This document shows positions 4,888-31,275 of a stretch of DNA of 64,000 bases, in pieces. Positions within the stretch are counted from its first letter, which is position 1. Each line of letters opens with the position of its first letter. The DNA is from Phlebopus portentosus (Eukaryota; Basidiomycota; Agaricomycetes; Boletales; Boletinellaceae): positions 62,001 through 126,000 of the forward strand of contig JAYXKI010000013.1 in the NCBI GenBank assembly GCA_037892935.1, read 5' to 3'. The notes under the pieces are model-generated. The model did no database searches and was not told the origin of the DNA. It saw only the letters and a program-made list of their open reading frames with translations. The position numbers and the translations under genes were made by a program.

Positions 4888-5640
4888 TCAGTGATCATCG
4901 ATCTCCATGGCTTCCGAGGTTCGGTGCCTGTAGGGTACTACATCTTCTTCTGGAAGTCCTGGGGTTTTTCCCACCGGTGTTCTATCATCTACCGAAAAGC
5001 TTCTCTTGTGGAGATATGTCATCATTCTTGTGAATCCTTCTTCCGGTGGCATTGGAATCTTAATTGGACCAATCACAAACTTGATCCTATGTTCTATTGA
5101 TATCTCTGTGACTCTTTTGTCCATAACTGATATCCCTTCTGCATCAATGAGTCTAATGAATTCTTTAACTCTAGTTATCGTATTTTCTGCTATATGTTGT
5201 ACTATTTCATTAGCTCCCCTTCTGTATGGTATGTCAATATTAATATGAATAAATTGACATTCTTCTTTATGTTTCTACTTTGGGAATTTAATTTGTACTC
5301 CTGCATTCATTAGATAGTCTCGTTCGTCATGTGAGAATACTGCTACTATATGTTCAAACGTCACATAGTTTGTATTAGGCTATTGTATGCCTTCTTGAGT
5401 AACGTATCCTGGAAATACTCTATGTGTCCCTCGTATGTCGAAGTTCATTGCTAATACCTCTGTCATCAAGAGTGATGAGATTATTGTACAATAAATGTCC
5501 CATCCTATCTACTGTGCTTGTTTGCATTTCTCGCAGTCATCCTTTACTTCTGGCCATTGACTGGCTTGTCCTTGGTTAACTATTCTCTTTAATGTAGTTT
5601 CCAGTGTTCTCGCTTGTTGTGTGAACATCTTGATTATATG
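4888..5640 (-). pseudogene. Broken gag-like reading frame of an unidentified retroelement
   Basis: On the minus strand the translation runs from KMFTQQARTLETTLKRIVNQ through NFDIRGTHRVFPGYVTQEGI and VQHIAENTITRVKEFIRLID to EEGFTRMMTYLHKRSFSVDD and ends near 4888. It is interrupted by at least two in-frame stops (after EGIQ and after KFPK) and one frame change. The style (alpha-helical, charged, no obvious catalytic motif) resembles fungal retrotransposon gag proteins, but I do not recognise the family. It may belong with the possible LTR remnant at 3.6-4.2 kb; the orientation is uncertain. Confidence 0.4.
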
Positions 5641-5691
5641 CTGTCATATGCACGCTATATTGCTGACTAAAGCAATTTCTAATAGAGATGC

Positions 5692-5889
5692 ATGAACCCA
5701 AAACTACTTGTATGGATGAAGCCGGCACAGTTAAAGAAGCACTTGAGTAGTGTCGCCTTCACTGACAAGACCAAAACTGAAGAGCTTTGTCCTGGACACA
5801 AGATAACGGAACTCGACCTCTCCCTCTCTGAAGAGATACTGCTTATCAAGGTCCCCGGTGCATCGTGCTTCTTCCTCATTTTAAATTGG
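5692..5889 (+). pseudogene. Probable N-terminal header fragment of the Crinkler-like gene split by the transposon nest
   Basis: The frame encodes a 60-residue segment with the pattern KPAQLKKHLSSVAFTDKTK, ELCPGHKITELDLSLSEEI, LLIKVPGA. This resembles the end of the ubiquitin-like header of agaricomycete Crinkler/RHS-like proteins (L-x2-L-x2-F, EEL-x-PG-x-K, E-x-I-x-LIKVPG). It lies directly against the left terminus of the mariner-type element; the body of such a protein starts directly after the right terminus. It therefore probably represents the 5' part of the gene at 32442-34272, cut by the insertion. Upstream exons are missing, and I could not find a splice that joins the two halves in frame. 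The assignment rests on pattern memory. Confidence 0.45.
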
Positions 5890-5891
5890 TA

Positions 5892-5927
5892 AGGTAGGCG
5901 AAAGTTATACTCAACAAGCTGTGACAT
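5892..5927 (+). repeat. Left terminal inverted repeat of the mariner-type element
   Basis: 36 bases identical to the reverse complement of 32386-32421; preceded by TA at 5890-5891. Confidence 0.9.
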
Positions 5928-6462
5928 GGCACATGCCTAACCTTACCTTCCTTTCTCAGCTCACGGAATGATGCTGAAATTCTGACAACACATACCCTCA
6001 AAATCAAAATTGACAACCATAAAAATGTGTGGAATGTAAATAGCTGCAGATTGTTAGTTTTTTTTCTTTAAAATATAAAAAAGTGGTAGCAGAATTTTTG
6101 GAAAAAACCTATTTGTGTAAAATGGCTCAGAATTCACTCTCCTGCCTTCTGGCAAAGTTTACAAAAATTACCCTGTAATTTTGGCCAGGGTCTATATTAC
6201 TAATAATTTCTATATAAAGGTATTACAAATTATTACTAATACAGCTCTGCATTACTAAGTATTATTAATCAGCATGTTCATAAGATCTCATTGTGGGCTC
6301 TAACAACAGACAGTACTATACCTAAATACCTAACCATAGGCCGTCTCTCCAACACATTGAAGGCAAGGTGCAATAACTTCAAAGCTGTGAAAAAGAAGGA
6401 GAATGTAAGCCCATGATCCTATCGAGCTTGAAAAATTTAACCAAATTACTCTATAATGCCAG

Positions 6463-9400
6463 GTGATTGAGTTGCTTTCAGATTCAGATTCAGTCATCTC
6501 AGACACAACTGTCCATTCTATTGAAACTGCTTCAACCAACAGCCAAAATGAAATTGACAGTGATGCTGAGGCAGATTTTGATGGACTGGGAACTGGCCTT
6601 ATCAATGTTGATGCTGCCCAACACCTTCTTCAGAAGCTGGCAGAGGGCATTCAGGCTTGATACAAGCAGTTGAAGGAATGTCGTCGTCCCATCATATATA
6701 CTGGACTCAGTGCACACACCCAATGCCGACACCAGGCAGCAGCCAAAAAGAATGAGGCAAATCTTCAGCAGAAAGGCTATGCAGATATTTGTCAGTTCTT
6801 CAAGTCTCCAGTCCAATCTCCAAAAGAGCCTAGATCAGACGAGGTAGTGATAGTTAGTAGCAAGGATAAGCACATTGGAGAACACATACCTTTGATCTGG
6901 GCACAGCAACAAGTGCTTCGCGCAGACAGCTTAACTGAGCTTCTTGTCTAGGATGTGCAGGCTGAGGATGCTACACTCCGTCACCATCCTCGTACCAATG
7001 CAATCAATAACATACATCTGAAATAGAGTGCAGAAGTCCACTTATGGATGAGTCTTAACGAACCTCACAATCTCAACCACAAGCATACTCAGCCCATCAT
7101 ACAGCCAGTACCCTCATCTGCATCAACGAGGATAACAAGTTTCATGCCATCAACAATGCAGACAGCACTAATGACTGGAACAATGGACTTCAGAGCATCC
7201 ATGGTGAATGAGATTGCACCTGAGGGAGAATGGGGCACATTGATGAGGGAGGCGAGTAGAGATGAATCCATTCCTAGCAAAGAGCAAGTTGCTGCTCTGC
7301 GTGCTCAGATTCAGGCCTTCAAATTTATCGAGCAAGGAGTTCCGATTCCAGAGCATATTCAGCATGCGATGCTTCCTTGCAACAATGCTATTGCTAATCT
7401 TGAAAAGTCACTTTACGATTCCGCAAGTGCTGAAGAACCTGAATCCAAGGAGAAATCAGCGGAGAGACTAACGCGCATGACGTGGGCTGGATTACTCCCC
7501 GCAATTGAGCACCAAACGAGTGCACCAATTCCAGAGCATATAGATCGCGAGATTCTTCCACATGACAATACTATTGCTAATCTCAAAAAGCCACTTCAAT
7601 GTTCTGTGTGTGCTCGTGCTGACAATAATGCCGTGATGGTCTTTGACATACCTGGCGGACAAAATTTATGCGCACCGATTCCAGAGCATATACATCACGA
7701 GATTCCTCTATGTAACAATGCTATTGCTAACCTCAAAAAGTCGCTTCATTCTCCCATGTCTGTGCGTGCCAACAACAGTAACGTGTTAGTCTCTGACATA
7801 CCCGACGAGCAAAGCTCATGCGCACCGATTCTAGAGCATATATGTTACGAGACCCTTCCACACAACAATGCTATTGCTAACCTTGAAAAGTCACTTCAAC
7901 GTTCCATGTGTGCTTGTGCCGACAACAATGCCGTGATGGTCTTTGACATACCTGGCGGATGAAATTCATGTGTACTGATTCCAGAGCATATACATCGCGA
8001 GATTCCTCCACATAACAATGCTATTGTTAACCTCAAAAAGTCGCTTCATTCTTCTGTGTCTGTGTGTGCCGATAACAGTAACGTGTCAGTCTCTGACATA
8101 CCCGACGAGCAAAGCTCATATGCACCAATTCCAGAGCATATATGTCGCGAGACCCTTCCACATGACAATGCTATTGCTAACCTTGAAAAGTCACTTCAAC
8201 ATTCCATGTGTGCTCGCGCCGACAACAATGCCGTGATGGTCTTTGACGTACCTGGTGGACAAAATTCATGCGTACCGATTCCAGAGCATATACATCACGA
8301 GATTCCTCCATGCAACAATGCTATTGCTAACCTTGAGAAGTCTGTTCATGGCCCCAATGTTCGCATGGGTGAGAAACGCATCTTGTCTTGAGAGGGGGAA
8401 GAGGAGGAAGAGAAAGAGGAGGAAGAGCAGGACAAGATCGATAGATGCCAGGCCATGGGTACAGAAGCATCCATGCAACGTGATGTGCAACACCGACAGC
8501 CTGATGGGACTGTCAGTGCTCTTCTAGCTGTGACGCATACTTTGCAAAATGCAAGATGCTTGGACAACAAACTCACCAAATCTCATGCCCCAAAATGAGA
8601 TGATCCTGAACTTCTGGAGGCTATCTAGCAGCTGAGCTGCATTTCTGATGACAAAACACTTGATTTATTGTTTCATGGCTGCGTGATGGCCATGCTTGTC
8701 TTTCTTCGGACGTACGTGATGTACAGTGAGTTTGAGTGGGAGGAGGCAGCATTGTTTGCAGCTGCAACAGTAGCAGGTCGGAGGACACATTTGGCACAGA
8801 ACATAAAACTCTGGACATGGCATCACATTCAAGACCACCGGTACTTACCTGTCAACCTCTATGGAGTCTGGAAGAAATCAATCATTCATGACAAAGACTT
8901 TCAGTCCAAGATACATGCCCATCTACAAAGCCTCAATAAGAAGTATTTGTCTCCCCAGGATGTACAGACCTATTTGAGCTGACCAGATGTACTTGCTCAC
9001 CTTGGACGCACAAAACCTGTCTCTTTGTGTATTGCACAGACATGGCTAAATGCCATGGGATATCGCTATGGGAAAACAAAATGAGAGATGTTTGTTGATG
9101 GCCATGAGCAAGAGGATGTTGTCTCTTACTGGCAAAAGGTATTTCTGCCACTTTGAGCTGAACTCGAGAAACAGATAGCTTTGGAAACTGATGCAATGCA
9201 CTTTCCATCTGGCGAGAATGCAACTGATGAGACCCATCAAATTGTTCTTGTCACTCATAATGAATCAACATTCTATGCAAATGACCAGTGAGAATTATGG
9301 TGGGCTCATTCTACAGAAACAGCAACTCCTCAACCTAAAGGAGAAGGGGCGTCTATCATGATCTCCGACTTCTGCACTCCTGAAGCCAGATGGCTGAAAT

Positions 9401-19325: not shown

Positions 19326-21972
19326 ACGTCGGAACGACTGGTCGGTCTCCTAAAGGACTCTTCTCGTTGGACTCGTTAAAATATAATCGTCCTGTTGTAC
19401 AATACCAAAATGCGAATATCAGCGACGGTTTTACCCTTCGAAAGATCCTTACCGACGTACTGCCAGATGAATCTGAAGATGACAACGATGACTTCGAAGT
19501 CTATGAAGATTTATTTGTCAGAAGAACAGATGCGCAAGCAGGCAAATTGAGAGAGGAAGAGCGGAATCAAACCGCTATAAAAAATGAGGTTGTGGCGGAA
19601 GCACCTTACCGCGAGAACGCTGTTGCTCAGGCGAACGTCACTGAAGCAGTGTGGGATGTAGTAGGCAGACGCGCGGCTGAGGTATGGCGCGAGGGCATTG
19701 TGGACGCAGATCAGTTCGTGCGACGGGCGGGAGGAAAGGAGTTGGACGCCTTCGTTAGCATCGTACACCCAAAGGTAGCAGGTGATGACGAAGTAGACTT
19801 GTCAGACCCCCTACTCAAGGAGGAAAACTTCATTGACGCTCATGCACTGATCGACTCAGGATGCACGGGCTCATGCATCGACGAAGGTTTTGTCAAACGG
19901 TATGGTTTCCCCACCCAAAGGTACATTCGACCTAGACCAGTCTTCAATGCTGACGGAACAAGCAACGAGGCTGGATTGATCAAAGAATACGTAGTCGTAC
20001 GAATGTTCTTTGGGAAACACGAGGAAGAGATTCGACTGGCAGTGACATCCTTAGCGTCAAGCAACATCTTCCTCGGACATGACTGGTTGACGAAGCATAA
20101 TCCTGAAATTGATTGGAGGTTAGGAACAGTTAAGTTCACCCATTGCCCTGATGAATGTGAGTCGCCACTGTCAAGCGAAGAGATAGATGAAGAGTTTGTG
20201 AGGAATGTGCGGATGAAGGAAGCGGCAAAATGACCACCTTACCTGGAGGAATATGCCGACGTCTTTGGTGAGGAATCGTTCGAACGCTTACCAAACCACC
20301 GAACGTGGGATCACGCTATTGACCTGAAGCCAGATTTCAAACCCAGCGACTGCAAGGTTTACCCGTTATCGCCAAAAGAACAAGAAGCGATAAGGGAGTT
20401 CATTGAGGAAAACCTAGCGTCAGGACGTATCCGACAGTCAAAGTCTCCAATGGCGTCACCATTCTTCTTTATCAAGAAAGAGGATGGGAGCTTACGAGCA
20501 ATCCAAGACTATCGAAAGCTCAACGAAGGGACGGTCAAGAACAAATACCCGTTACCGCTGATAAATGAGCTCATCGACAAGGTTAAGGATGCAAGGTACA
20601 TCACGAAGCTCGACGTTCGTTGGGGATACTACAACATCCGGATTCGCGAAGGAGATGAGTGGAAGGCAGCGTTCCGGACAAATCTAGGCTTATTCGAACC
20701 CACAGTCATGTTCTTCGGCTTGTGTAACGCGCCAGCGACATTCCAAGGCTTTATGAACGACATCTTTCGGGAGCTAATCCATGAGGGTATTGTCATCATT
20801 TACCTCGATGACATTCTCATCTTCTCGAACGATCTAGAGGAACATCGCAGACGCACCAAACGAGTCTTTGAGATCCTTCGCCGAAACGGACTTTTCCTAA
20901 AGCCGCAGAAGTGCAAGTTTGAAGTCGACACAGTCAAGTACCTCGGGCACATCATCGGCAATGGCGAAGTTCAAATGGATCCCAAGAAGACGGCAGCAGT
21001 ACAGGACTGGCCAGTTCCAAGGAACGTCCACGAACTGCAACAATTCCTGGGACTAGGGAATTGGTTGCGACGTTTCGTTAAGGATTACAGTTCAGTCGTC
21101 AAACCCTTGACTACACTGACGGGTAAGGTGGAATGGAAGTGGGGGGAAGATGAACAGGCAGCGTTCGAGGAATTGAAGCGTCGTCTGAGTAGTCCTCCCG
21201 TGTTAGCGATACCCAACAGTGAGGACCCTTTTCATGTGGAAGCAGATGCATCGGACTTTGCAACTGGAGGAGTCCTTCTCCAGAAACAAGATGGCAAATG
21301 GAAGGTGATCGCTTATCGGTCGTCAACATTCCTAGAGGCAGAGCGAAATTATGAGATCTACGACAAGGAAATGCTTGCCATCATTCAAGCCCTAAAGGAA
21401 TGGCGACAATATCTCCAGGGAGCTAACCAACCTTTTGAGGTGTGGACAGACCATGCAAATCTAATGTACTTCCGATCGCCGCAGAAGTTAAATCGTCGAC
21501 AAGCTCGATGGCGACTCGATTTAGCTGAGTTTGATTTTACGCTAGTCCATAAACCTGGAAAGACGTTGGGAAAAGCCGATCTGTTGTCACGCCGAGCTGA
21601 TTATGACAAGGGCGAACACGATAACGAGAACGTGACTTTTGTCAAGAAGGAATGGTTGGTTAGAGGAACGGTTCAGACGTCAAGGGAGGTACTCATCGAA
21701 AAGGTTGTGGAAGCGCAGAGACAAGAGGATGAGGGACTGAGGCCAAAGGACGTCGAGAAAAGAGGGGACATATGGAGAAAGGGCCGCCGACTATACGTAC
21801 CAGCGAGCGTCAGAGAGGGCGTCATGAAGGAACACCATGACTCGACCCTGGCAGGACACCCAGGAGCAACAAAGACGATCCAGCTGATAGCACGCAGGTA
21901 CTGGTGGCCAAGGATGAGTGCAGATGTGCGGGTGTATGTGCGGGGGTGTGATCGTTGTCAGTGGACGAACAT
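19308..21972 (+). pseudogene. Gypsy pol, part 1: protease, RT, RNase H, integrase zinc finger
   Basis: Entered by -1 frameshift. Protease: AHALIDSGCTGSCIDEGF (Asp of DSG) and SSNIFLGHDWL. A TGA at 20231-20233 breaks the frame between protease and RT. RT: ASPFFFIKKEDGSLRAIQDY, LDVRWGYYNIRI, FFGLCNAPATFQ and YLDDILIF, the catalytic YxDD, at about 20801. RNase H: FHVEADASDFATGGVLLQ and YEIYDKEMLAIIQAL. Integrase HHCC: EHHDSTLAGHPGATKTIQLI and CDRCQ. The frame is cut just after CDRCQWTN by the 8.1-kb DNA element. Apart from the TGA I see no other lesion. Confidence 0.88.
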
Positions 21973-22620
21973 CAGGAAATCAGTCCATTTGAGTTATTAA
22001 TGGATAGTGAGTTATAACACCATAGTAGTTCATAGTAGTGCATAGTATACTATAGTAATATATAGTAATATATAGATACATATAGATAGTATTCTATAGT
22101 AATGCATAGTATATAGATATGAATAGCAATTAATAGTATCACATAGTTTGATACCTCTGTATAGGGCCTGGTAGACAGTTATAGGTAATAGTTCAAAGAA
22201 GTATATAGCTGTTTATAGTGGTGAGCAATTCATAACAGTATTTAGATAGCAATAGAGGTTAGTAATATATAGTCAATATATGATTAGTTATATATAGTAA
22301 TATATAGTAATATATAGATGCATATAGATGATATCCTATAGTAACATATACTACATAGATATAAATAGTAATCAATAGTAGTATATTGTCTGATATCTCT
22401 GTATAGATCCTAATAAATAGTTATAATCTATAGTTTAAAGAAGTATATAGTTGTTTATAGTGGTAAACTGTCTATATTACTAGATAGAGATTAGTAATAC
22501 ATAGTCAATATATGACTAGTAATATATAGTAATATATAAATGCATATAGATGATATTCTATATCAATATTAGTACATAGTTATGAATAGCAATCAATCAC
22601 TGCATATTGGAGATCCTTAA
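21973..22620 (+). repeat. Left terminal and subterminal repeat region
   Basis: After the terminal repeat come dozens of copies of TATAGTA, ATATATAGTAATATATAG and similar words. Two larger blocks, about 22080-22260 and 22320-22500, are recognisable as diverged direct repeats of about 240 bases (each has a GATATTCTATAGTA-like start, ACATAGATAT, a ...CTCTGTATAG... part and AAAGAAGTATATAG). Such arrays usually bind the transposase. Confidence 0.75.
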
Positions 22621-23026
22621 CACATGCCTGTGTAGCTGAATGTACCCAAGATAAGGAAATCTACACAAAAATCTGTCTTACATCACACAGAAAATTTGTG
22701 TAGAACAAGGTACATTAGGTACACAAATATATGCATTTCTGTGTAGATCACCTAACATAAATGTCTGTATAGTTTCGTCTAGCTGACATGGGGTTTGATT
22801 AGGTTTTGAGAGTTGATATACAAGAACTGGACTAGATTTGCATAATAGAACTATGTAAATCTACATAGATCTACATGGGCCAGTGCCAGTATTTGATGGG
22901 CTTAGATTCATTTTGACATGTTGTCCTCTTTGTCTCTTGCCACCACTGTCATGCCACTCTTTTCACCCTCAGCACCTACAAATTATCTCCATCCCTGCTT
23001 TATCCTCCTCATTCATGACTGTTTTA

Positions 23027-23803
23027 CAGCACCGTCACTGAGGCTGTCATCACTATTCCTGCTTACTTTAACAACTCGCAATGTCAGGTGACACCAGTGT
23101 TATCTCTAGCCTCAACTTCTTCCAACTTATCAATGAACCCACAGTGGCTGCTATCATGTATGGTCTTGACAAGAAGCTCTAAGGCAAGTGCAATGTCCTC
23201 ATTTTTGACCTTGGTGGAGGTACCTTTGATGTATCACTCTTGACCATTGAGGAGGGTATCTTTGAAGTCAAGGCGACTGTCAGCAATAGTCACTTGGGTG
23301 ATGAGAACTTTGACAATCACCTTGTAAACCACTTTATTCAGGAGTTCAAGTGCAAGAACAAGAAGGGTATGTAATTTAAGTCATTCCAATGGCATATGAT
23401 CATGGTATTGACACTGATTTTCTTAGATCTTTCATTGAACCCTTGTGCTCTTTACCAACTCTGTACCGCTCGCAAGTGTGCGAAGTGTACACTGTCATCA
23501 GCAGCACAGATGACCATTGGAATTGATTCACTCTATGAGGGTATCAACTTTTACATCTCAATCACCCATGCACAATTCGAGGAGTTATGCCAAGATCTCT
23601 TCCGGTCTATACTTGAGCCTGTTGAGAAGGTTCTCTGGGACTCCAAGGTTGATAAGTCCAATGTACATGAGATGGTCCTTGTCGGAGGTTCTACCCATAT
23701 CCTCTGTATTGTCAAGCTCTTTTCTGACTCCTTCAACAGCAAGGTGCCATGCAGGTCTGGCAACCCAGATGAGGCTGTCGCGGACGTCTACATAGTAACT
23801 TGA
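23027..23803 (+). pseudogene. Captured Hsp70 fragment 1 (ATPase domain part)
   Basis: Reads [58 protein letters not shown] (the Hsp70 phosphate loop [14 protein letters not shown]), [21 protein letters not shown] retained GT-AG intron (23367-23426) follows, then [60 protein letters not shown] and [14 protein letters not shown]. Stops (for example after KKL) and many substitutions at conserved sites show it is non-functional. The best match in memory is cytosolic SSA-type Hsp70. The intron shows DNA-level capture. Confidence 0.88.
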
Positions 23804-23828
23804 TAGAGAAATGTATTGATTTTTTGGC

Positions 23829-24462
23829 ACATACTGTCATCACCGGAGACCCAAATCTGGAACTGGACAAAGTTGCCACACTGAAGAGCATCATCATGCC
23901 TCTCACGTACCAAGAAAGAGGTTAGTAGGAAGAGCATCTTGGTTGATGTGTGATTTAAAATTATTTGACAGTGACTCCATACGATATTGCATACTTATAA
24001 GAGCTTGTGCAGAATGGATCGAGAGAATACCCTCAAGTGCAATATGTGATTCAAGATACCGGAAAGCATATAGATCTTTGGTACAATAAGCATATGGACA
24101 TCTTTCTTCAGTATCAACATGGTTATATCATCTTCAACTGACAGCTATCGTTGCACAAGATGTCTATGGTGTGTCTCCAGGTCTGACTAGTGCCCTATTT
24201 GAGTGCATACCTAACCTATATATTCATGTCTGAACTCTGACTAATTTTATGCAGGCTTTCGTCTCAATCTTTCTGTCACTCCTCTGTACAATGCCGGCTT
24301 CCATAGTGATGAATAAACATGCAGTATGTCATATCGCTTTCGCTTTGTGTTATTGTCTCTGATCTCTGTGTGGCATTCCCCAGAGCAAGGAGACTGGGGC
24401 CAAACTCAGTCAAATAGTATGGGTCCCCAGGCAGATCATTTTGCTCCAAGTGAACAAGATCG
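23829..24462 (+). pseudogene. Captured RPB1 (RNA polymerase II largest subunit) fragment
   Basis: Reads VITGDPNLELDKVATLKSII and MPLTYQER, a retained intron at 23921-23971, VTPYDIAYL-stop-[36 protein letters not shown], a second apparent intron about 24170-24254, then FRLNLSVTPLYNAGFHSDE (RPB1: FRLNLSVTSPYNADFDGDE, here with the Mg-binding NADFDGD motif destroyed), and SKETGAKLSQIVWVPRQI near 24390-24440. The order of segments matches RPB1. Several stops are present. It lies directly between the two Hsp70 pieces in the same orientation. Confidence 0.85.
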
Positions 24463-24868
24463 TTGGCTGCTATCCTCAAGGGCGACACCTTGGAGAAGAC
24501 CCAAGACCCCTTCTTGCTTGATGTCGCTTCTCTGTCGCTCGGTATCGAGACCACTGGCAGTGTCATGACTGCATTTATCAAGCATAATATGACTGTCCCA
24601 ATGAAGAAGTCAGAGATCTTCTTAACGTATGCCGACAATGATTCAAGGAGCTGTGCCAGAATCTCTTCCATTCCACGCTTGAGCCTGTTGAGAAGATTAT
24701 CCGGGACTCCAAGATAGACAATTCCAATGTACACAAGATCATCCTCATCAATGGTTCCACCTGTATACCCCGAATTGTCAAGTTCATGCCTGACTTCTTC
24801 AACAGCAAGGAGCTATGCAAGTCTATCAACCCAGATGAGACTGTTGTGTACGGTGCCACCATCTGCTA
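24463..24868 (+). pseudogene. Captured Hsp70 fragment 2, segments in permuted order
   Basis: The first half reads [40 protein letters not shown] and [11 protein letters not shown], the start of the Hsp70 substrate-binding domain. It is followed immediately by [40 protein letters not shown] and [17 protein letters not shown], which in a real Hsp70 lies before that first half. The two halves are in different frames. The second half overlaps the protein region already present in fragment 1, so it is a second capture or an internal rearrangement. Confidence 0.82.
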
Positions 24869-25481
24869 AGCTTGCATGTATTTTGGTAATTTCTAATCAA
24901 ATATAATTATAAATTAGTCTGAAAGTGGAAAACAAAATTTCTAACTGTTGAGGCAGTAGAGCCTGTTAACAAAGCAGAGAGTAAATGTATGCAGGCCTAC
25001 ACATAGAGATGTAGGTCATGTATGCATATCTATATGTATGTACAACCTATTTCATCTAGACGGTCCATGCTAAACCAGTGCTGGTTATACATTTGCAATT
25101 TAATACAGATCTTGTGTAGATGATGTACAAAGCTAGTGTAGTCACTGGTTACATGACCTACCCAAATACACACCTCCTAAGAGTAAGAGCAACAGATGCG
25201 TACGCATCCGAGTTTTTGAAGACTTTCCCACAATCACATGATAGAGTTAAATAACACCTTAAATATAGTACAGTACTTTCTGGTTATGCTGACCTTCTGA
25301 GCTTGCTTTGTTTACATCAGGCAGCTTTAGAAAGTGCTATAATGATATAAATTTAGGTTCAATTTTATCAAGATTTGTTTGTTATCATTAGGACTTGTGA
25401 ACATGGGGAGCATCAATCTTGTCTTTTTTTTTCGGTCTTACCCTTTTGTTGCACGTGACGAAGTTGACTTTGCAACTCGCA
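24869..25481. other. AT-rich filler of the 8.1-kb element
   Basis: No reading frame recognised. 24960-25160 contains words such as TACACATAGAGATGTAGG and TGTGTAGATGATGTAC that echo the 22.6-22.9 kb region. A 14-base palindrome GATGCGTACGCATC sits at 25195-25208 and reappears inside a longer palindrome at 29057. Confidence 0.4.
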
Positions 25482-25489
25482 ACTCACAC

Positions 25490-26121
25490 TGGGGGTCGGC
25501 AAATCCCAAGTTCAACGCGTGCGCGTGATTTTCATCGGAGCTTCAAAATATCACTATAATAGGCAATTCATGTAGATCGCAGTTACAACAATTTTACTTT
25601 CGACCATGCATGTACTGTACTTCTCTTGCCAATACAACTCAAACCTGCAAATTATTTAGGTCCAAAATGAGTTTCTTTGCTCTTATTTCTCTTATTCTGC
25701 AAATTCTCAGGGAAATTCACATGCTTCTCTTGATCTGCAGTAGCTTCTGTCTGGTAGAATAATTAAACATCCTGCAACCACATCATCAAAAATCTTGCTT
25801 TTTTTTACACATTCTTGCTATATCATGTCATAGGGACAGCTCTATGGAGCCAGAATTCTTGTTTATTACCTCCAAGCTCAGATATTTATTTTATCTTCGA
25901 GAATTTTGCAAATTTTGAGAAACGGAGACCATAGGATTGAAGACATACATGCAAAAGTAAAATCTACAAGTTTTCTTAGCAATCTATGGCGTGTGGAAAT
26001 TATGATGTTGAGTCGAAGATGGAGGACTTTTTGTTGTAAATTCTATTGAAACTCCGACGGCGGCAGATCCTGCCGGACTCGTGGGAATGCACGCAATTCA
26101 CTTGAGTGTTGCCGACCCCCA
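25490..26121 (+). mobile_element. hAT-like MITE (632 bp) inside the 8.1-kb element
   Basis: Ends TGGGGGTCGGCAA (25490-25502) and TTGCCGACCCCCA (26109-26121) are perfect inverse copies, extending imperfectly for about 33 bases. Flanks are CTCACAC at 25483-25489 and 26122-26128 (or 8-base ACTCACAC with a one-base offset). The 7-8 base duplication and short G-rich terminus suggest the hAT superfamily. No coding capacity is seen. Confidence 0.75.
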
Positions 26122-26159
26122 CTCACACAAGTCACATTCCTCCTTCCCCATCCTCACCT

Positions 26160-26475
26160 CCTTACTGCCCTCGACCGGCGACATCACCTTGCACATGCTT
26201 GACTTGCCAGTAGGCTGGCAGTTTCAGGCTCACACCCTTCGTTGATGCTGACCACAGGTATGAGATTTCATTGATGCCTTGCTGTAGGGTGTTGGGAGAT
26301 AACTTCTTATCCTTATGGAGGACGGTGTAGTGAACTCCATGAGCGATACCTTGCATGCCTGCATGAGCCTGCAAAGAGAAATCGTAGTCGTAAATGCTCG
26401 TCATGCCCTGGTCTATGCTCGTTCCCACCATAGAGCACGAGGTCTTGTCAGTCGTCGTGATGTGCAGGATGCGTC
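26160..26475 (-). pseudogene. Captured Argonaute fragment, C-terminal PIWI end
   Basis: The minus-strand frame reads HITTTDKTSCSMVGTSIDQG, MTSIYDYDFSLQAHAGMQGI, AHGVHYTVLHKDKKLSPNTL and QQGINEISYLWSASTKGVSL then PAYWQVKHVQGDVAGRG. This matches the end of PIWI (GTVVD..., F-x-F-x-LQSHAG-x-QG, HY-x-VL, SVS-x-x-PAYYA). The preceding PIWI catalytic region is absent; the sequence changes to a Sac3-like frame on the plus strand near 26480. Confidence 0.85.
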
Positions 26476-26479
26476 TGAT

Positions 26480-27185
26480 GAACTTCAGTGACTTCACGGA
26501 GACTCGGGCATTTGCCAGAGATCGCTCTCGAGCTGTACGCAACGGTTTCACGATTCAGCAAGACAACGGACCAATAGCTATCGAGTCTCACGAACGATGT
26601 ACACGTTTTCATATCCTTTCACTCTATCTCATGTACGACGTACCTACGTTTGATCGAGCTTTGGAGATCCAGCAGCTTATGAACTGTGAGTCCTCAACCT
26701 TGCCGTCAAGTTGTTGTCTGGATCTTTACGCCTGCAAAAGCTCTGCTGTCTCTAAAGGAGTTCTGTGACGATCAAAGAGGAAAGGCTGAATCACCTAACG
26801 AATTGGAGATGCGTGTATACCGTTGTCTCAGCCTCATCCATGACCAGCACGAACGAAATGACAGACCTCCACCACATATCGCCGCCGACCTAGCCTTCCA
26901 GCTTATATCCCGTTTCCGCAGTGAAGTCCAGGCTGCCACAGTCCGATCACGAAGACTTCGAAGCTCAGAGTCAATGGGGCTGCCATGCAAACGTTTGCCG
27001 AACTAGCGACCACCACTGACGGTCGTCAACATCATCGACACTTGTTTGACGGGCAGCCTCGGGAACATGCAAGTTCCAGTGTTTTCGTACAGCAACTCAA
27101 GAAACTGTATAGGGGCATTTCGAACTTAGGATCGTCTGCGGCTGGGGTAGAACCGAGTCTAATGACCTTTGCTACAAATGATGTA
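26480..27185 (+). pseudogene. Captured Sac3/GANP-domain gene fragment
   Basis: The plus strand reads FTETRAFARDRSRAVRNGFT, IQQDNGPIAIESHERCTRFH, ILSLYLMYDVPTFDRALEIQ and QLMN. An intact GT-AG intron (26686-26740) follows, then LLSLKEFCDDQRGKAESPNE, LEMRVYRCLSLIHDQHERND and HIAADLAFQLISRFRSEVQA, then AAMQTFAELATT. This follows the Sac3/GANP domain (RD-x-R-x-x-RNDF-x-IQQ, ERI-RFHI-SLH, LKE-YDD-R-K-x-S-PNE-E-R-Y). In yeast Sac3 scaffolds the TREX-2 mRNA export complex; related proteins act with the proteasome or in RNA decay. The part from 27030 on is not recognised. It is oriented opposite to the flanking Argonaute pieces. Confidence 0.75.
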
Positions 27186-27479
27186 AGTCAACTTCGGTTT
27201 GTATTTCTTCAGTTCACCAAATGCTTCGTTCAGCTGCTTGATCTCGGTGGGAAATGCAGGGTTCAAAACCTGCTCTACGGCGTTCCATCAGCTGCCTTGT
27301 TGGTGCCGTCCTTTTCCAATGCGCAGAAGAAGACATTCAGACAGCTGCATTCGACGCTTTAAGGTGTGCTACGATCCCAGGTTTCGAAGCGAACCTCAAA
27401 GCCGTTGCCGCCAATCCTCTAGGTGGTTCAGCGAGCCCTTTGGAAGGGTATGTCGCGCTTGCAAGTTTGCTGGGTCCTT

Positions 27480-28905
27480 GTCCACATCCTCATCGCGGTA
27501 TGGATCCTCTCGACTCGGACGGCGGAGCTGCAGGACCTGCATGATGAAGTCCGAGTTGACGTTCATTCCACGTGCGTGACATTTTCCGATCAGAGCCTTC
27601 ACCGCCTCGCGCACCTGCACCTCGAGCGAGCTGTCGGACTCTTCTATATTCCCATCCTTTAAGACCACAACTGCAAGGCGTTTAAGCTCTGCAAGCCTCG
27701 CGAACTGAATGCCACGCGCCGTCCAAGATCCATTGACAATTTGTGCACGGCCCGAAGGATAAATCACCAATGGTGCGGGGAGAACGCGAGCCGCGACAAC
27801 AGCCATATTTGTCGAGATTTTGATTCCGAAGCTGGCCATCGGAGGTGTGCCCTCCTCGAAGCCTAGGAGACGGAGACCCTTGATAGTGATTGTCTGTGCG
27901 TAACCGGCTGGCGTCTTGTTGTTTGCAGCACACAGGGCTGCGCTCTCCCCAGACTTCAGCTCACCCGCGAAAAGGGCCCTGGTACAATCTTGCACAGCTC
28001 GGCTGGTACGAAAACGTCCTTGCCCTCTTTCCCGACATTCACCACGGGCAGGTCGTCTGCGTGGCGGAGTGTGATGTGGAACTCTGTGCGATAGTCAGCA
28101 CGATTCCTATTCGATCCACGGATGACTTACTTTTCTGGAAATATTCCTCCACTGTGATATTGCCGAATTTTTCACTCTGGATCTTTGTCCGTCTCGCCGT
28201 ACCGGGTCCAATTGCCTTCACGGTGTTGCGCTTATCGTACCCGAGGTAACTTGTAACTACCCTCATATTACTGAAGAATTTCTGAGGTACGGCACCGCGA
28301 GATTGCTGCATGAACTCGCGCAGCGCATCGGCCATGCTTCGCGGGACGTGGAACGCGCTCATGCACGTATTCACGCTGACCATGAGGGACTTGTGAACTG
28401 GACGGACGGAAGCGAAGAAGCCGTTGACGACCTTGATGCTAGGGCGAGTAGGCACGCCCGTATCCGCATTGGGGTCGAAATAGTATGCATCCTTGGTGAG
28501 TGCGCGAAAACCAGTGTGAGCGGCATGCGCCATAACGATCAGGTTGAAGGCCGAGACGATAGGTGCAGGATCGTAGTCGGGATTCTCACCACGTAGGTAC
28601 CTGTTGAAGAAAGAAGTCAGTATCACTATTAGATTACGGTCGAAGGGCAAGCCTTACCCAGCGAGGTCCGCTGATTTAAGAGGATTAGGTCCGACAAGTG
28701 TGACAAAGTACGGGATATCGTGCGTGCGTGCGCCCAGTTCCTCGGACGACGGGGCCGGTGCCGTCACCGTGACCTGAAAGTTTTTCGGCAGCGGCAGCTT
28801 TGCGACGAGGCGACCGACGCCATCATGCGCGATGCCCTGCACGTTCTGCGATAGTTCCTGAGACTGAGCAAATTCGGCAACAATGTGCCTGCGCAAGTCG
28901 ACGGC
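27480..28905 (-). pseudogene. Captured Argonaute fragment, N-terminal, PAZ and linker-2 regions
   Basis: On the minus strand: DLRRHIVAEFAQSQELSQNV and LPKNFQVTVTAPAPSSEELG (N domain/linker), an intron near 28605-28660, NPDYDPAPIVSAFNLIVMAH, KVVNGFFASVRPVHKSLMVS and VNTCMSAFHVPRSMADALRE (the GF-x-x-SVRP and N-x-D-x-x-x-SAF region before PAZ). Then MRVVTSYLGYDKRNTVKAIG, an intron near 28090-28130, HADDLPVVNVGKEGKDVFVP and AELCKIVPG (end of PAZ), and GYAQTITIKGLRLLGFEE. It ends in a MID-side part, ARGIQFARLAELKRLAVVVL. A one-base frameshift after KIVPGP separates it from GELKSGESAALCAANN. It is far less decayed than the Hsp70 and RPB1 pieces. MID and most of PIWI are missing. Confidence 0.88.
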
Positions 28906-28911
28906 CTCCTA

Positions 28912-29000
28912 GGTACGGCACTGCAAGATTACTGCATGAACTCGCGCAGTGCATTGGCCATGCTGTGTGGGACATGGAATGCACTCATGCACGTCTCCAG
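28912..29000 (-). repeat. CpG-decayed second copy of an Argonaute segment
   Basis: About 87 bases match 28286-28372 in the same orientation (shared GGTACGGCAC, GCATGAACTCGCGCAG, CATGCACGT). Nearly every difference is a CpG in the better copy that is TG or CA here: ACCGCGAG/ACTGCAAG, CAGCGCATCGG/CAGTGCATTGG, GACGTGGAACGCGC/GACATGGAATGCAC. It is a direct duplication with methyl-cytosine-type decay. Confidence 0.85.
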
Positions 29001-29056
29001 GCTGGTGCTGAATGGACCTGTAAGGTAATTGGCTCCTTATGTTGAGCCACCGAATT

Positions 29057-29076
29057 GTGGATGCGTACGCATCCAC
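29057..29076. repeat. Perfect 20-bp palindrome
   Basis: GTGGATGCGTACGCATCCAC is its own reverse complement. Its core GATGCGTACGCATC also occurs at 25195. Lies just past the Argonaute fragments. Possibly a terminus of a further element enclosing the Argonaute/Sac3 block; not proven. Confidence 0.6.
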
Positions 29077-29559
29077 ATTCTGAACCATCTCTCACCTTGC
29101 AGATTGCAATGGCTTCAGGCCACTTCATTACCTTTTCTTTTAATTGTTGTTCTGGCTGTTGGGAGGTCTGTGGTTCTTGGATACCTCTGTCCCTGTTGCA
29201 GCGGGCAGCCCAGGTGTAGAGGCAGTATGTTGAGTGCTGCTGAACCTGTGCACTTAGCCAGGGCGGCACCTATTATACTGTGGCTGTTTGCCAGCCAGCT
29301 GGAGGTGTGCTATGCGCTGCTGAACCTGTGCCACTTAGCTGGGGCGGCGCTAGTGCACTCTGACCTTGTGTTAACCAGTTTGGGCCTTGAAGCCAGTGGA
29401 AGTTCCTTTGTCCTGTCAACAGTGTCTAGTGTTAACACTTTTGACTATTTATTATCTCCGACAAGTAGCATTGGTCTATATTAGTATAGATGTATATGAG
29501 TGTACGCCTAGCTCACATAGATTCTGTAGTAAGCTGTACATGTAATTAGTTACATGCTT

Positions 29560-30048
29560 GTATGGGTCTGTAAGTAGTATACTATCAATATATTTAAATT
29601 TAATAAAAATTAAATATGTTCTCTGATATGCTCGTGGTCTCTAATAAGTGCTATCTATGATAATATATGACTATCTATATCTTTAATATGCTATGGCAAT
29701 ATATCACCTATAAGAACTATCAACTATAAGCATCTAGTATCAGCTATAAACTCATACTAATTACTATAAGGCACTATGCACTATGCGCTAGTAGTACTAT
29801 AAATCTGTATCAATTGCTACAGGTTGCTATATATTATGCACTATTCATCTCTTTCTAGTACTATGAATAAATATTAACTATAGCATCTATACACTGTTAC
29901 AGCCCTCTATATAGTAGGGGGGTCACGATAAATCACTATGGACTACTAACCTACTATAGGCTGCTATATAGCAGCCTATAGTAATGAGTAGCTATGAGTA
30001 GCTATGGGTAGCTATGGGTAGCAGTGGATAATTTGGACTGTTTTCCTG
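29560..30048 (-). repeat. Right subterminal and terminal repeat region
   Basis: Rich in CTATAAG, ACTATA and AGCTATGGGTAGCTATGG words, mainly the inverse orientation of the left-end TATAGT words. The last 60 bases hold four short tandem copies of a GTAGCTATGG/A unit before the terminal repeat. Confidence 0.65.
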
Positions 30049-30050
30049 AT

Positions 30051-31275
30051 GAAGGCTCTAAGGACAACGAGAGCAAAGGTTTTGCACCCTAACGAGGTGC
30101 CGGAGGCGCCATGGCAGATTGTCACGGTCGACCTAATCGGAGAGTTGCCAGAATCGAATGGGTTCAATGCGATTTGTGTAGTGGTCGATCGCTTTAGCAA
30201 ACAAATCCATGCGATTCCAACAACGACAAAGTTAACGGCGGAAGGCATGGCTAGGATCTACAGAGACCACGTCTTCCGATTACACGGACTACCACGGAAG
30301 ATCATTCATGACCGAGGAGTACAATTCGACGCGAAGATGATGAAGGAGTTATACAAGCTCCTCCACATTGAAGGCAACCCGTCAACAGCGTATCACCCAC
30401 AAACTGACGGACAGACAGAGCGGGTTAATCAGGAACTGGAACAATACCTGCGGCTATACGTCAACCATCGGCAGTCGGACTGGGCGGACTGGCTGGCTCT
30501 CGCAGAATTCGCATATAACAACCGCGAACATTCAGCGACGAAGCTATCTCCCTTCTTCGTCAATACGGGAATGCACCCCTTAGACTTTACGGGGGTTGGA
30601 ACGGCATCATCAAACCTGTCAGCAGAAGAATTTGCCAAGCATGTCAAGGAGGTGCACGAACTCGCTCAAGGTAACCTAACCCAAGCAAACGAAGACATGA
30701 AGCGTTTCTACGACCGCCATGCTGGGAAGTCTATTACCTATGAGGCAGGGCAGAAAGTCTTCCTAGATGGACGGAATATCAAGATGATCCGACCGACGAA
30801 GAAGATGGATGATAAATGGTTCGGTCCCTTCGAGGTAGTGGAAAAGGTTGGCGCAAGCGCATACAGACTCAAACTACCGAAGACCTGGAAGAAGGTCCAT
30901 CCAGTTTTCAATGAGATCTTGCTCAAACCAGCCGTCCAACCGTCCTTTGAATCGCAGAAGAAACCACCTCCACCACCGCCAGTGATCATTGATGAGCAGG
31001 AAGAGTACGAGGTTGAAGAAATACGCAACTCGCGTCTGCATCGAGGCAAGCTCCAATTCTTGGTCAAGTGGGTTGGATATGAGGAAGCGACTTGGCAGCC
31101 AGAATCCGACGTCAAGGATAATGCGCAGGAATCAATTCAAGAATTCTACCGCAAACATCCTGGAGCTCCGAGGAAGTTAACGATACCTCGACAAAGCCTG
31201 CGAGCGCTGTACAAGTTCACGTCCTCGGAAGGCTTATGTGGTTGGTCGGGACGCCCAACCTTGAAGGGGGGGTGA
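30051..31275 (+). pseudogene. Gypsy pol, part 2: integrase core and chromodomain
   Basis: Removing 21973-30050 rejoins the two halves in frame. Integrase core: IVTVDLIGELPESNG (first Asp), HGLPRKIIHDRGVQFDAKMM (second Asp), YHPQTDGQTERVNQELEQYL (Glu). The GPY-like region is DDKWFGPFEVVEKVGASAYR. The C-terminal chromodomain is EEYEVEEIRNSRLHRGKLQF then LVKWVGYEEATWQPESDV. Chromodomains of this clade guide integration to heterochromatin (family knowledge). Stop TGA at 31273-31275 abuts the 3' LTR. Confidence 0.9.
31263..31272 (+). promoter_or_regulatory. Polypurine tract of the gypsy element
   Basis: GAAGGGGGGG directly before the pol stop codon and the 3' LTR; the usual plus-strand primer. 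Confidence 0.8.

Follow-up and report, generated by a model that had tools for sequence, protein, structure and literature searches.

The DNA analysed here is a stretch of 64,000 nucleotides (the window) from contig JAYXKI010000013.1 of the basidiomycete Phlebopus portentosus, in which a gypsy integrase is interrupted by an insert of 8,082 bp at positions 21970-30051. The insert is bounded by terminal inverted repeats (TIRs) and is filled with fragments of host genes. Its borders were determined against gypsy copies without the insert, which read GGACRAAGGCTC; three such places were examined, among 39 others matched besides the window's own. The empty site is GGACAAAGGCTCTAAGG in copy L048, GGACGAAGGCTCTAAGG in L049 and GGACAAAGGCTCT in L047, which then diverges; the site is also given as GGACAAAGGCTC in both L047 and L048 and as GGACGAAGGCTC in L049. 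At the insertion site the window reads GGACGAA/CATCAGG...CCTGATG/AAGGCTC (slashes mark the borders), as opposed to a single AA in the empty copies (GGACRAAGG), and the target-site duplication (TSD) of this copy is thus AA, 2 bp in length. The TIRs extend over 18 bp with one mismatch (94% by repeat comparison), from CATCAGG at the left to CCTGATG at the right. A previous reading of this DNA, made from its letters alone (the sequence-only reading), had set the borders at 21973-30048, 3 bp short at each side, and had wrongly given the duplication as AT. The inverted ends that it described as 15 bases long do exist, at the greater length given here; the restored integrase sequence that it proposed, GACGAACATGAAGG, differs from the empty copies, while the frame is intact by hand reading either way.

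Domains in the cargo were sought with Pfam in six frames, with X at stops and E values up to 0.01, and the closest genomic copy found was taken as the host-gene source. All of the cargo named in the sequence-only reading (Hsp70, RPB1, Hsp70 again, Sac3/GANP and Argonaute) was recovered in this way, and its estimate of at least four host genes is borne out by pieces of Hsp70, RPB1, Sac3, Argonaute and Gcn1. That reading had overlooked the Gcn1 fragment, a nested miniature inverted-repeat transposable element (MITE), and the fact that the Argonaute sequence lies on the minus strand and is interrupted there by both Sac3 and Gcn1. In this Argonaute sequence, ArgoL1, ArgoL2 and one Piwi piece scored above the Pfam cut-off, and PAZ and a second Piwi piece below it. 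Minus-strand matches to PF10712 (NAD-GH) are antisense to the Hsp70 pieces and were treated as spurious; we take PF10712 to be an antisense-Hsp70 family. The features are collected in Table 1.

Table 1. Features of the window element, followed by related places elsewhere in the genome (C, contig; L, locus)
Feature	Position	Strand	Evidence and remarks
Target-site duplication AA, left	21968..21969	.	single AA in empty gypsy copies
Left TIR CATCAGGAAATCAGTCCA	21970..21987	+	inverted-repeat comparison, ends of related loci
Left subterminal region	21988..22597	+	two 242-bp units, ATAGTA-type motifs
Hsp70 fragment 1	22766..23785	+	Pfam match 23090-23783; in-frame stop 23180; 83% to C3:3018200-3019700
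RPB1 domain 2 fragment	23809..24198	+	Pfam
Hsp70 fragment 2	24465..24638	+	Pfam, profile 372-429
Hsp70 fragment 3	24640..24854	+	profile 292-373, out of order; 78% repeat of 23575-23786
Palindrome GATGCGTACGCATC, copy 1	25195..25208	.	repeat comparison
MITE, 632 bp	25490..26121	.	TIR TGGGGGTCGG..CCGACCCCCA; duplication CTCACAC
Argonaute fragment, Piwi end	26149..26449	-	74% to C4:1881700-1884500
Sac3/GANP segment	26450..27144	+	Pfam; 26488-27009 92% to C19:188992-189514
Argonaute fragment, Piwi	27145..27248	-	below Pfam cut-off; 92% to C4 copy
Gcn1 fragment, 231 bp	27249..27479	+	Pfam; 97.4% to C13:278359-278589
Argonaute fragment (L1, PAZ, L2)	27478..29004	-	90% to C4 over 27478-28910; internal repeat 28911-29004
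Palindrome GATGCGTACGCATC, copy 2	29060..29073	.	about 55 bp past the end of Argonaute-like sequence
Right subterminal region	29822..30033	+	likeness to right end L046
Right TIR TGGACTGTTTTCCTGATG	30034..30051	-	inverted-repeat comparison, ends of related loci
Target-site duplication AA, right	30052..30053	.	single AA in empty gypsy copies
Short-family loci per contig	C13 1, C2 4, C4 3, C1 1, C12 2, C6 5, C15 2, C8 3, C3 2, C23 1		DNA search
Seven transposase genes	C1, C2, C3, C6, C14:407902, C7:1649624, C7:1691149		PF18759
Large pairs with matching 2-bp TSD	C14:398341-422436; C7:1639971-1670422; C1:2083793-2120558; C2:1726003-1763732		the C14 pair is 24.1 kb, nested in C14:380126-465042

The element belongs to a family of short copies. 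DNA searches of the organism's own genome (38.4 Mb, 23 contigs), in which the best 21 of 164, 40 of 48 and 40 of 91 candidates were scored and all counts are lower bounds, turned up related loci at no fewer than 24 places on 10 contigs, some of them partial or broken by other insertions. Twenty-one loci (the window and 20 others) were examined letter by letter. Among 11 full copies, pairwise differences amounted to 0.4-3.0% in the left 3.5 kb, 0.2-4.7% in the middle and 0.6-4.8% in the right 2.6 kb. In these 21 loci, namely the window and L009-L028, all ends that were read have the form ..CA/TCAGG or CCTGA/TG.., a few with one inner mismatch; the right ends of L021 and L027 have CATTA where other loci have CATCA. 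Since CA/TG stands at every end read, which would not be expected of target sequence, these letters are part of the element.

The mobility of the family was examined through its TSDs, with ends paired by orientation and neighbourhood and with nested pairing for C14. Matching 2-bp TSDs were seen at 10 of the 19 short-family loci that had both flanks (shuffle mean 3.0; 10 were reached in 0 of 100,000 shuffles). For large pairs with ends of the same type, described below, the figure was five out of eight (shuffle mean 1.9, P 0.011), these being seven pairs with a Plavaka match inside and C14:323646-359985; short and large together gave 15/27. The sequence-only reading had called for a search for other copies with the same ends, and these ends recur dozens of times. 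It had named different cargo in such copies as a mark of a family, and here the answer is divided: variants exist, yet the copies mostly share one cargo set. The Gcn1 form was found in two of the 21 copies, an Argonaute uninterrupted at this place in 17 and one interrupted there by other sequence (L011, L021) in two; to these is added a sublineage on C14. In L021, 1,625 bp replacing 1,152 bp were considered as different cargo and rejected: Pfam in six frames was empty, and the same sequence occurs at full length in L011, L017 and L025 and partly in L003 and L027, so that it is probably a repeat insertion rather than gene cargo. A 1,604-bp insert in L023, with borders overlapping by 6 bp, is likely a transposable-element insertion.

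A transposase for these ends was found in larger relatives. The TIR pattern, with up to two mismatches, occurs at 76 genome places, compared to 18 for a reversed control. A profile search of the genome with the Plavaka transposase PF18759 returned 36 matches; seven of the genes matched, each with two exons, are placed 9.3-9.6 kb inward of a left end of this TIR type. For two further matches (C14:425612, C3:2761689), situated inside or close to such elements, the spacing is different. The main exon of the C1 transposase is open over 599 aa (Plavaka E value 8e-63) within a 36.8-kb pair with TSD AA, and is 97% identical to a predicted protein of Sanghuangporus sanghuang. Likeness to the window's copy extends beyond the TIRs: with the TIRs included, identity is 82% over its first 628 bp to the left ends L029 and L032, 82% over its first 530 bp to L036, and 77% over its last 230 bp to the right end L046 of the large element C6:138517-162224. 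No cargo matches were found within this element or within the four large pairs of Table 1 among the scored candidates. The lengths of the large pairs may include nested insertions, and a gypsy match lies inside C7:1639971-1670422. The absence of a transposase asserted in the sequence-only reading is thus correct for the window copy (Pfam, six frames) and does not extend to related genomic elements, which carry the Plavaka transposase; the autonomous-type relative that it had called for may be among these elements, which share TIR type and subterminal sequence with the window copy and whose autonomy is inferred. The other PF18759 matches are located elsewhere. They include a second Plavaka family of three copies (C14:274159, C5:340583 and C16:9565; L039-L041) that resemble one another at 98.7-99.9% over at least 2.3 kb.

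PlavakaB elements, of the CMCT clade, are described in PMC12730594 as having CATCA..TGATG termini and TSDs of 2-3 bp. The window element has CATCA..TGATG termini, a 2-bp TSD and a transposase-bearing relative with the same ends, and by these features its classification as a Pack-type member of PlavakaB is near certain; as Pfam in six frames detected no Plavaka transposase in the window copy, it is a non-autonomous member at most. Its Pack-type character is seen in host-gene fragments lying between TIRs without a transposase of their own, and in copies with varying cargo, this variation being limited.

The arrangement of the Argonaute block bears on how cargo was changed. Two Argonaute genes, C4:1881834-1884304 and the inverted C4:1896391-1898864, lie about 12 kb apart with the same order of parts, and the main Argonaute piece of the window element is 90-91% identical to either; in the former (L043), L1, L2 and Piwi are above the Pfam cut-offs and ArgoN and PAZ below. 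A standard copy of the family, L010, matches the C4 gene as a single piece (4974-7070, 87.8%). The window Argonaute retains an intron-like stretch at about 28601-28657 (GTAAGG...CAG), which indicates that DNA, not mRNA, was captured. At the site of the Sac3 segment, Argonaute lacks 19 bp. Where this segment begins on the left is uncertain, since the SAC3 domain found by Pfam (26385-26690) runs into the Argonaute match. The C14 sublineage (C14:323646-359985; L071 and L072), whose left end is only 76% like that of the window element and which has no matching TSD, shares this Sac3-Argonaute junction at 83%. Because the junction is shared with this diverged sublineage, the Sac3 capture step looks old.

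The Gcn1 piece is a more recent and more legible case. Its closest copy lies inside a longer Gcn1 match on C13 (Pfam 7e-22), and among the 21 copies it occurs solely in the window and at C2:1690273 (L009). In its place the standard copy L010 has 555 bp of Argonaute sequence, and the C4 gene 593 bp. The junctions between element and Gcn1 source show microhomologies of 2 bp each, GG and TT. Six differences from the C13 gene are common to both patched copies, three are private to L009 and none to the window; this fits a single patching, a capture that then reached the second place by movement or conversion.

Taken together, these results make it quite likely that the window element represents a non-autonomous PlavakaB (CACTA-like) Pack-type family that captured and amplified fragments from five or more host genes, was moved in trans and was patch-repaired. 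In the proposed scheme, the transposase of the large elements would bind the shared TIRs and subterminal repeats and move the short copies in trans, which is very likely. When a copy suffers an internal break or excision gap, repair would copy sequence from another locus into it, leaving a host-gene patch with a few bp of microhomology, and patched copies would then multiply by ordinary transposition. Gcn1 and Sac3 most likely entered by such patch repair; the first Argonaute and Hsp70 blocks may have entered by this or another route. The cargo would mostly be broken passenger DNA. The core of the sequence-only reading, a Pack-type TIR transposon with several host-gene fragments, holds, and the cargo does not lie intact at one host locus, an outcome that would have spoken for a single transposed segment: the closest copies found of four cargo genes are spread over four contigs (Gcn1 C13, 97.4%; Sac3 C19, 92%; Argonaute C4, 90%; Hsp70 C3, 83%).

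Several observations weigh against this interpretation. The 2-bp TSDs mismatch at nine of the 19 short-family loci (19 of 24 being testable) and at three of the eight large pairs; two of these 12 have a 4-bp match instead (L067/L027, ACTT; C6:138517-162224, CCTG), and the other ten are unexplained: clustered copies may have recombined, ends may have been lost or the pairing may have been wrong. Stops fall within the matched stretch of the C2, C3 and C7:1691149 transposases, and the stop-free matches on C14, C7:1649624 and C6 lie in frames of just 273, 247 and 267 aa, the first belonging to the 24.1-kb C14 element. The large elements were examined over 3.7 kb around the C1 transposase and at short ends, and it is from these stretches that we infer their autonomy. 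The closest copies are read as sources, not as proven parents, and a source gene for RPB1 was not found at the DNA level among the best 40 of 91 candidates scored. In the left part the two patched copies group only weakly as sisters (0.873), and in the middle and right segments they do not group together; recombination or conversion blurred the history of the copies and could have moved the Gcn1 patch. Finally, the Hsp70-RPB1-Hsp70 chimera is also present in another repeat, and this block perhaps did not come directly from host genes.

This last point bears on an alternative that we regard as possible but doubtful, namely that the chimeras were made elsewhere and a ready-made repeat was absorbed, the Plavaka element itself not assembling chimeras. 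Outside the short family the block is found as one piece, at about 85%, at 15 places (22930-24636 at ten and 22930-24524 at five), and the five places with the shorter piece have a neighbouring match to 24880-25173 as well, at 79-81%; the block also occurs in separate pieces at C7:752724 and C8:1815364. The Hsp70/RPB1 chimera is therefore common to more than one repeat, and the direction of travel could have been either way. The Gcn1 patch and the Sac3-in-Argonaute junction, on the other hand, were found among the scored places only in Plavaka-ended copies and the C14 sublineage, which speaks against this alternative. As regards the second repeat itself, its 15 places, some near contig ends, are C21:25553, C20:238572, C18:153732, C12:29150, C12:1465110, C12:792033/826770, C16:38494/74169, C15:95786, C15:178477, C13:1416285/1450223 and C7:19025/53077; same-orientation pairs 34-36 kb apart on C7, C12, C13 and C16 possibly reflect a very large repeated unit.

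A second alternative, proposed for Arabidopsis Pack-CACTA elements (PMC13317346), is that two neighbouring copies with complementary terminal deletions were fused around genomic DNA. Many copies do lie close together, for example at C6:138-218 kb and C2:1690-1875 kb, and fusion could account for the entry of the first Argonaute or Hsp70 block. It does not predict short internal Gcn1 and Sac3 pieces inside an Argonaute that is partly lost, and as a general explanation it is unlikely.

It is very unlikely, in our view, that the cargo serves a function, in which the amplified Argonaute fragment, its upstream end some 55 bp from a palindrome that recurs in the transposase-bearing elements, would yield small RNAs or decoy transcripts directed at the Argonaute of the host and so weaken host RNA silencing of transposons. 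The Sac3-Argonaute block was kept across about 17% divergence (C14), which is compatible with such a silencing decoy and equally with simple inheritance.

A Helitron, inserted between A and T with 5' TC and 3' CTRR ends, was also considered, as Helitrons are known gene catchers and the border letters fit A/TC..CTRR/T. The empty gypsy sites have neither an A/T junction nor the CA/TG, the TIR and subterminal sequence are common to Plavaka-transposase elements, and Helitrons are described without TIRs and TSDs in PMC4289320; with its ends ruled out by the empty sites and the TIR, this explanation is extremely improbable. In its favour, two Helitron Rep loci are present in the genome (C9:707709-711359 and C4:647339-650989; L037 and L038), 98.9% identical over 3,349 bp with open frames of 1,619 and 1,489 aa. 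An assembly chimera or a one-off segmental transposition of a host locus is ruled out by the number of related loci (24 or more, over 10 contigs), by the spread of the cargo sources over four contigs and by the precise empty sites, nothing having been found in its favour, and its probability is virtually nil.

Two further features of the window copy lie outside this argument. The nested MITE, with a duplication of 7 bp (8 bp if its last A is not assigned to the MITE), is present in the window copy alone among the 21 copies, and its entry is a later event. It was found at 12 other places in the genome (10 full, two partial; 93-98%), giving 11 full and two partial copies with that of the window. 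The palindrome GATGCGTACGCATC occurs at 54 genome places as against one for a reversed control, C14:401710, 401761, 403438 and 415874 being among them. In transposase-bearing Plavaka elements it lies 3.1-3.4 and 4.9-5.1 kb from the left TIR, in four of them also at 17.2-17.5 kb, and once at 31.2 kb; CACGTG lies near it in two of three stretches examined, and it could possibly be a regulatory motif. A 15-nt inverted repeat around the Argonaute was considered as the ends of a nested transposon and rejected, as it contains this genome-wide palindrome, found in Plavaka elements and elsewhere. The palindrome was also seen in near-identical 91-bp stretches 10.0-10.1 kb apart (C1:1998874/2008928 and C9:288064/298081), which are probably long terminal repeats.

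Among known systems, the family resembles PlavakaB in its termini, its 2-bp TSD, its Agaricomycete host and the PF18759 of its partner elements, and differs in lacking a transposase and in being filled with broken fragments of several genes. Some Plavaka families acquired a TET/JBP gene (PMC12730594); a search of this genome for Tet/JBP gave no match, and its positive control matched nowhere either. Plant Pack-CACTA and Pack-TYPE elements are likewise non-autonomous TIR elements of a CACTA-like clade with captured gene fragments (PMC8903248, PMC13317346), whereas the present family is fungal, belongs to Plavaka rather than plant CACTA and mostly carries one amplified cargo set. Animal Pack-TIRs show DNA-level capture with filler and a median microhomology of 2 bp (PMC8277862); the DNA capture, the short microhomology (GG and TT in the window) and the amplification by transposition are shared, while their hosts are animals and the window element accumulated several genes. 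In fungi, the hAT elements of Pyrenophora and Pseudocercospora that carry a captured histone H3 (PMC3538342, PMC6710886) are similar in that a TIR transposon captured and amplified a gene, and different in being ascomycete, hAT and single-gene. With this precedent, gene capture by fungal TIR transposons is not new as such. The HELPO Helitrons of Pleurotus ostreatus are basidiomycete elements with extra genes and are, by contrast, rolling-circle elements without TIR or TSD, and basidiomycete Helitrons are said not to tend toward host-gene capture (PMC4289320). No capture of host-gene fragments by Plavaka was found, by title or abstract opening, among the papers listed on Plavaka, fungal Pack-type elements and capture or transduplication; one Plavaka paper, judged by its title and abstract opening, treats TET/JBP genes carried by transposons.

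Pack-type shuffling is thus known in plants and animals, and in fungi single-gene capture by ascomycete hAT elements; here a basidiomycete Plavaka family is seen to do so, and it carries fragments from five or more host genes. Its large partners, in pairs of at least 24 kb including nested insertions, are big for a cut-and-paste transposon, transposition efficiency falling above 6 kb of cargo according to a review (PMC6431247). In the window and its sister copy, the source, target and junctions of one capture are all visible, which makes the repair model directly testable. The family indicates that fungi, too, can shuffle genes by means of this little-studied class of transposons.

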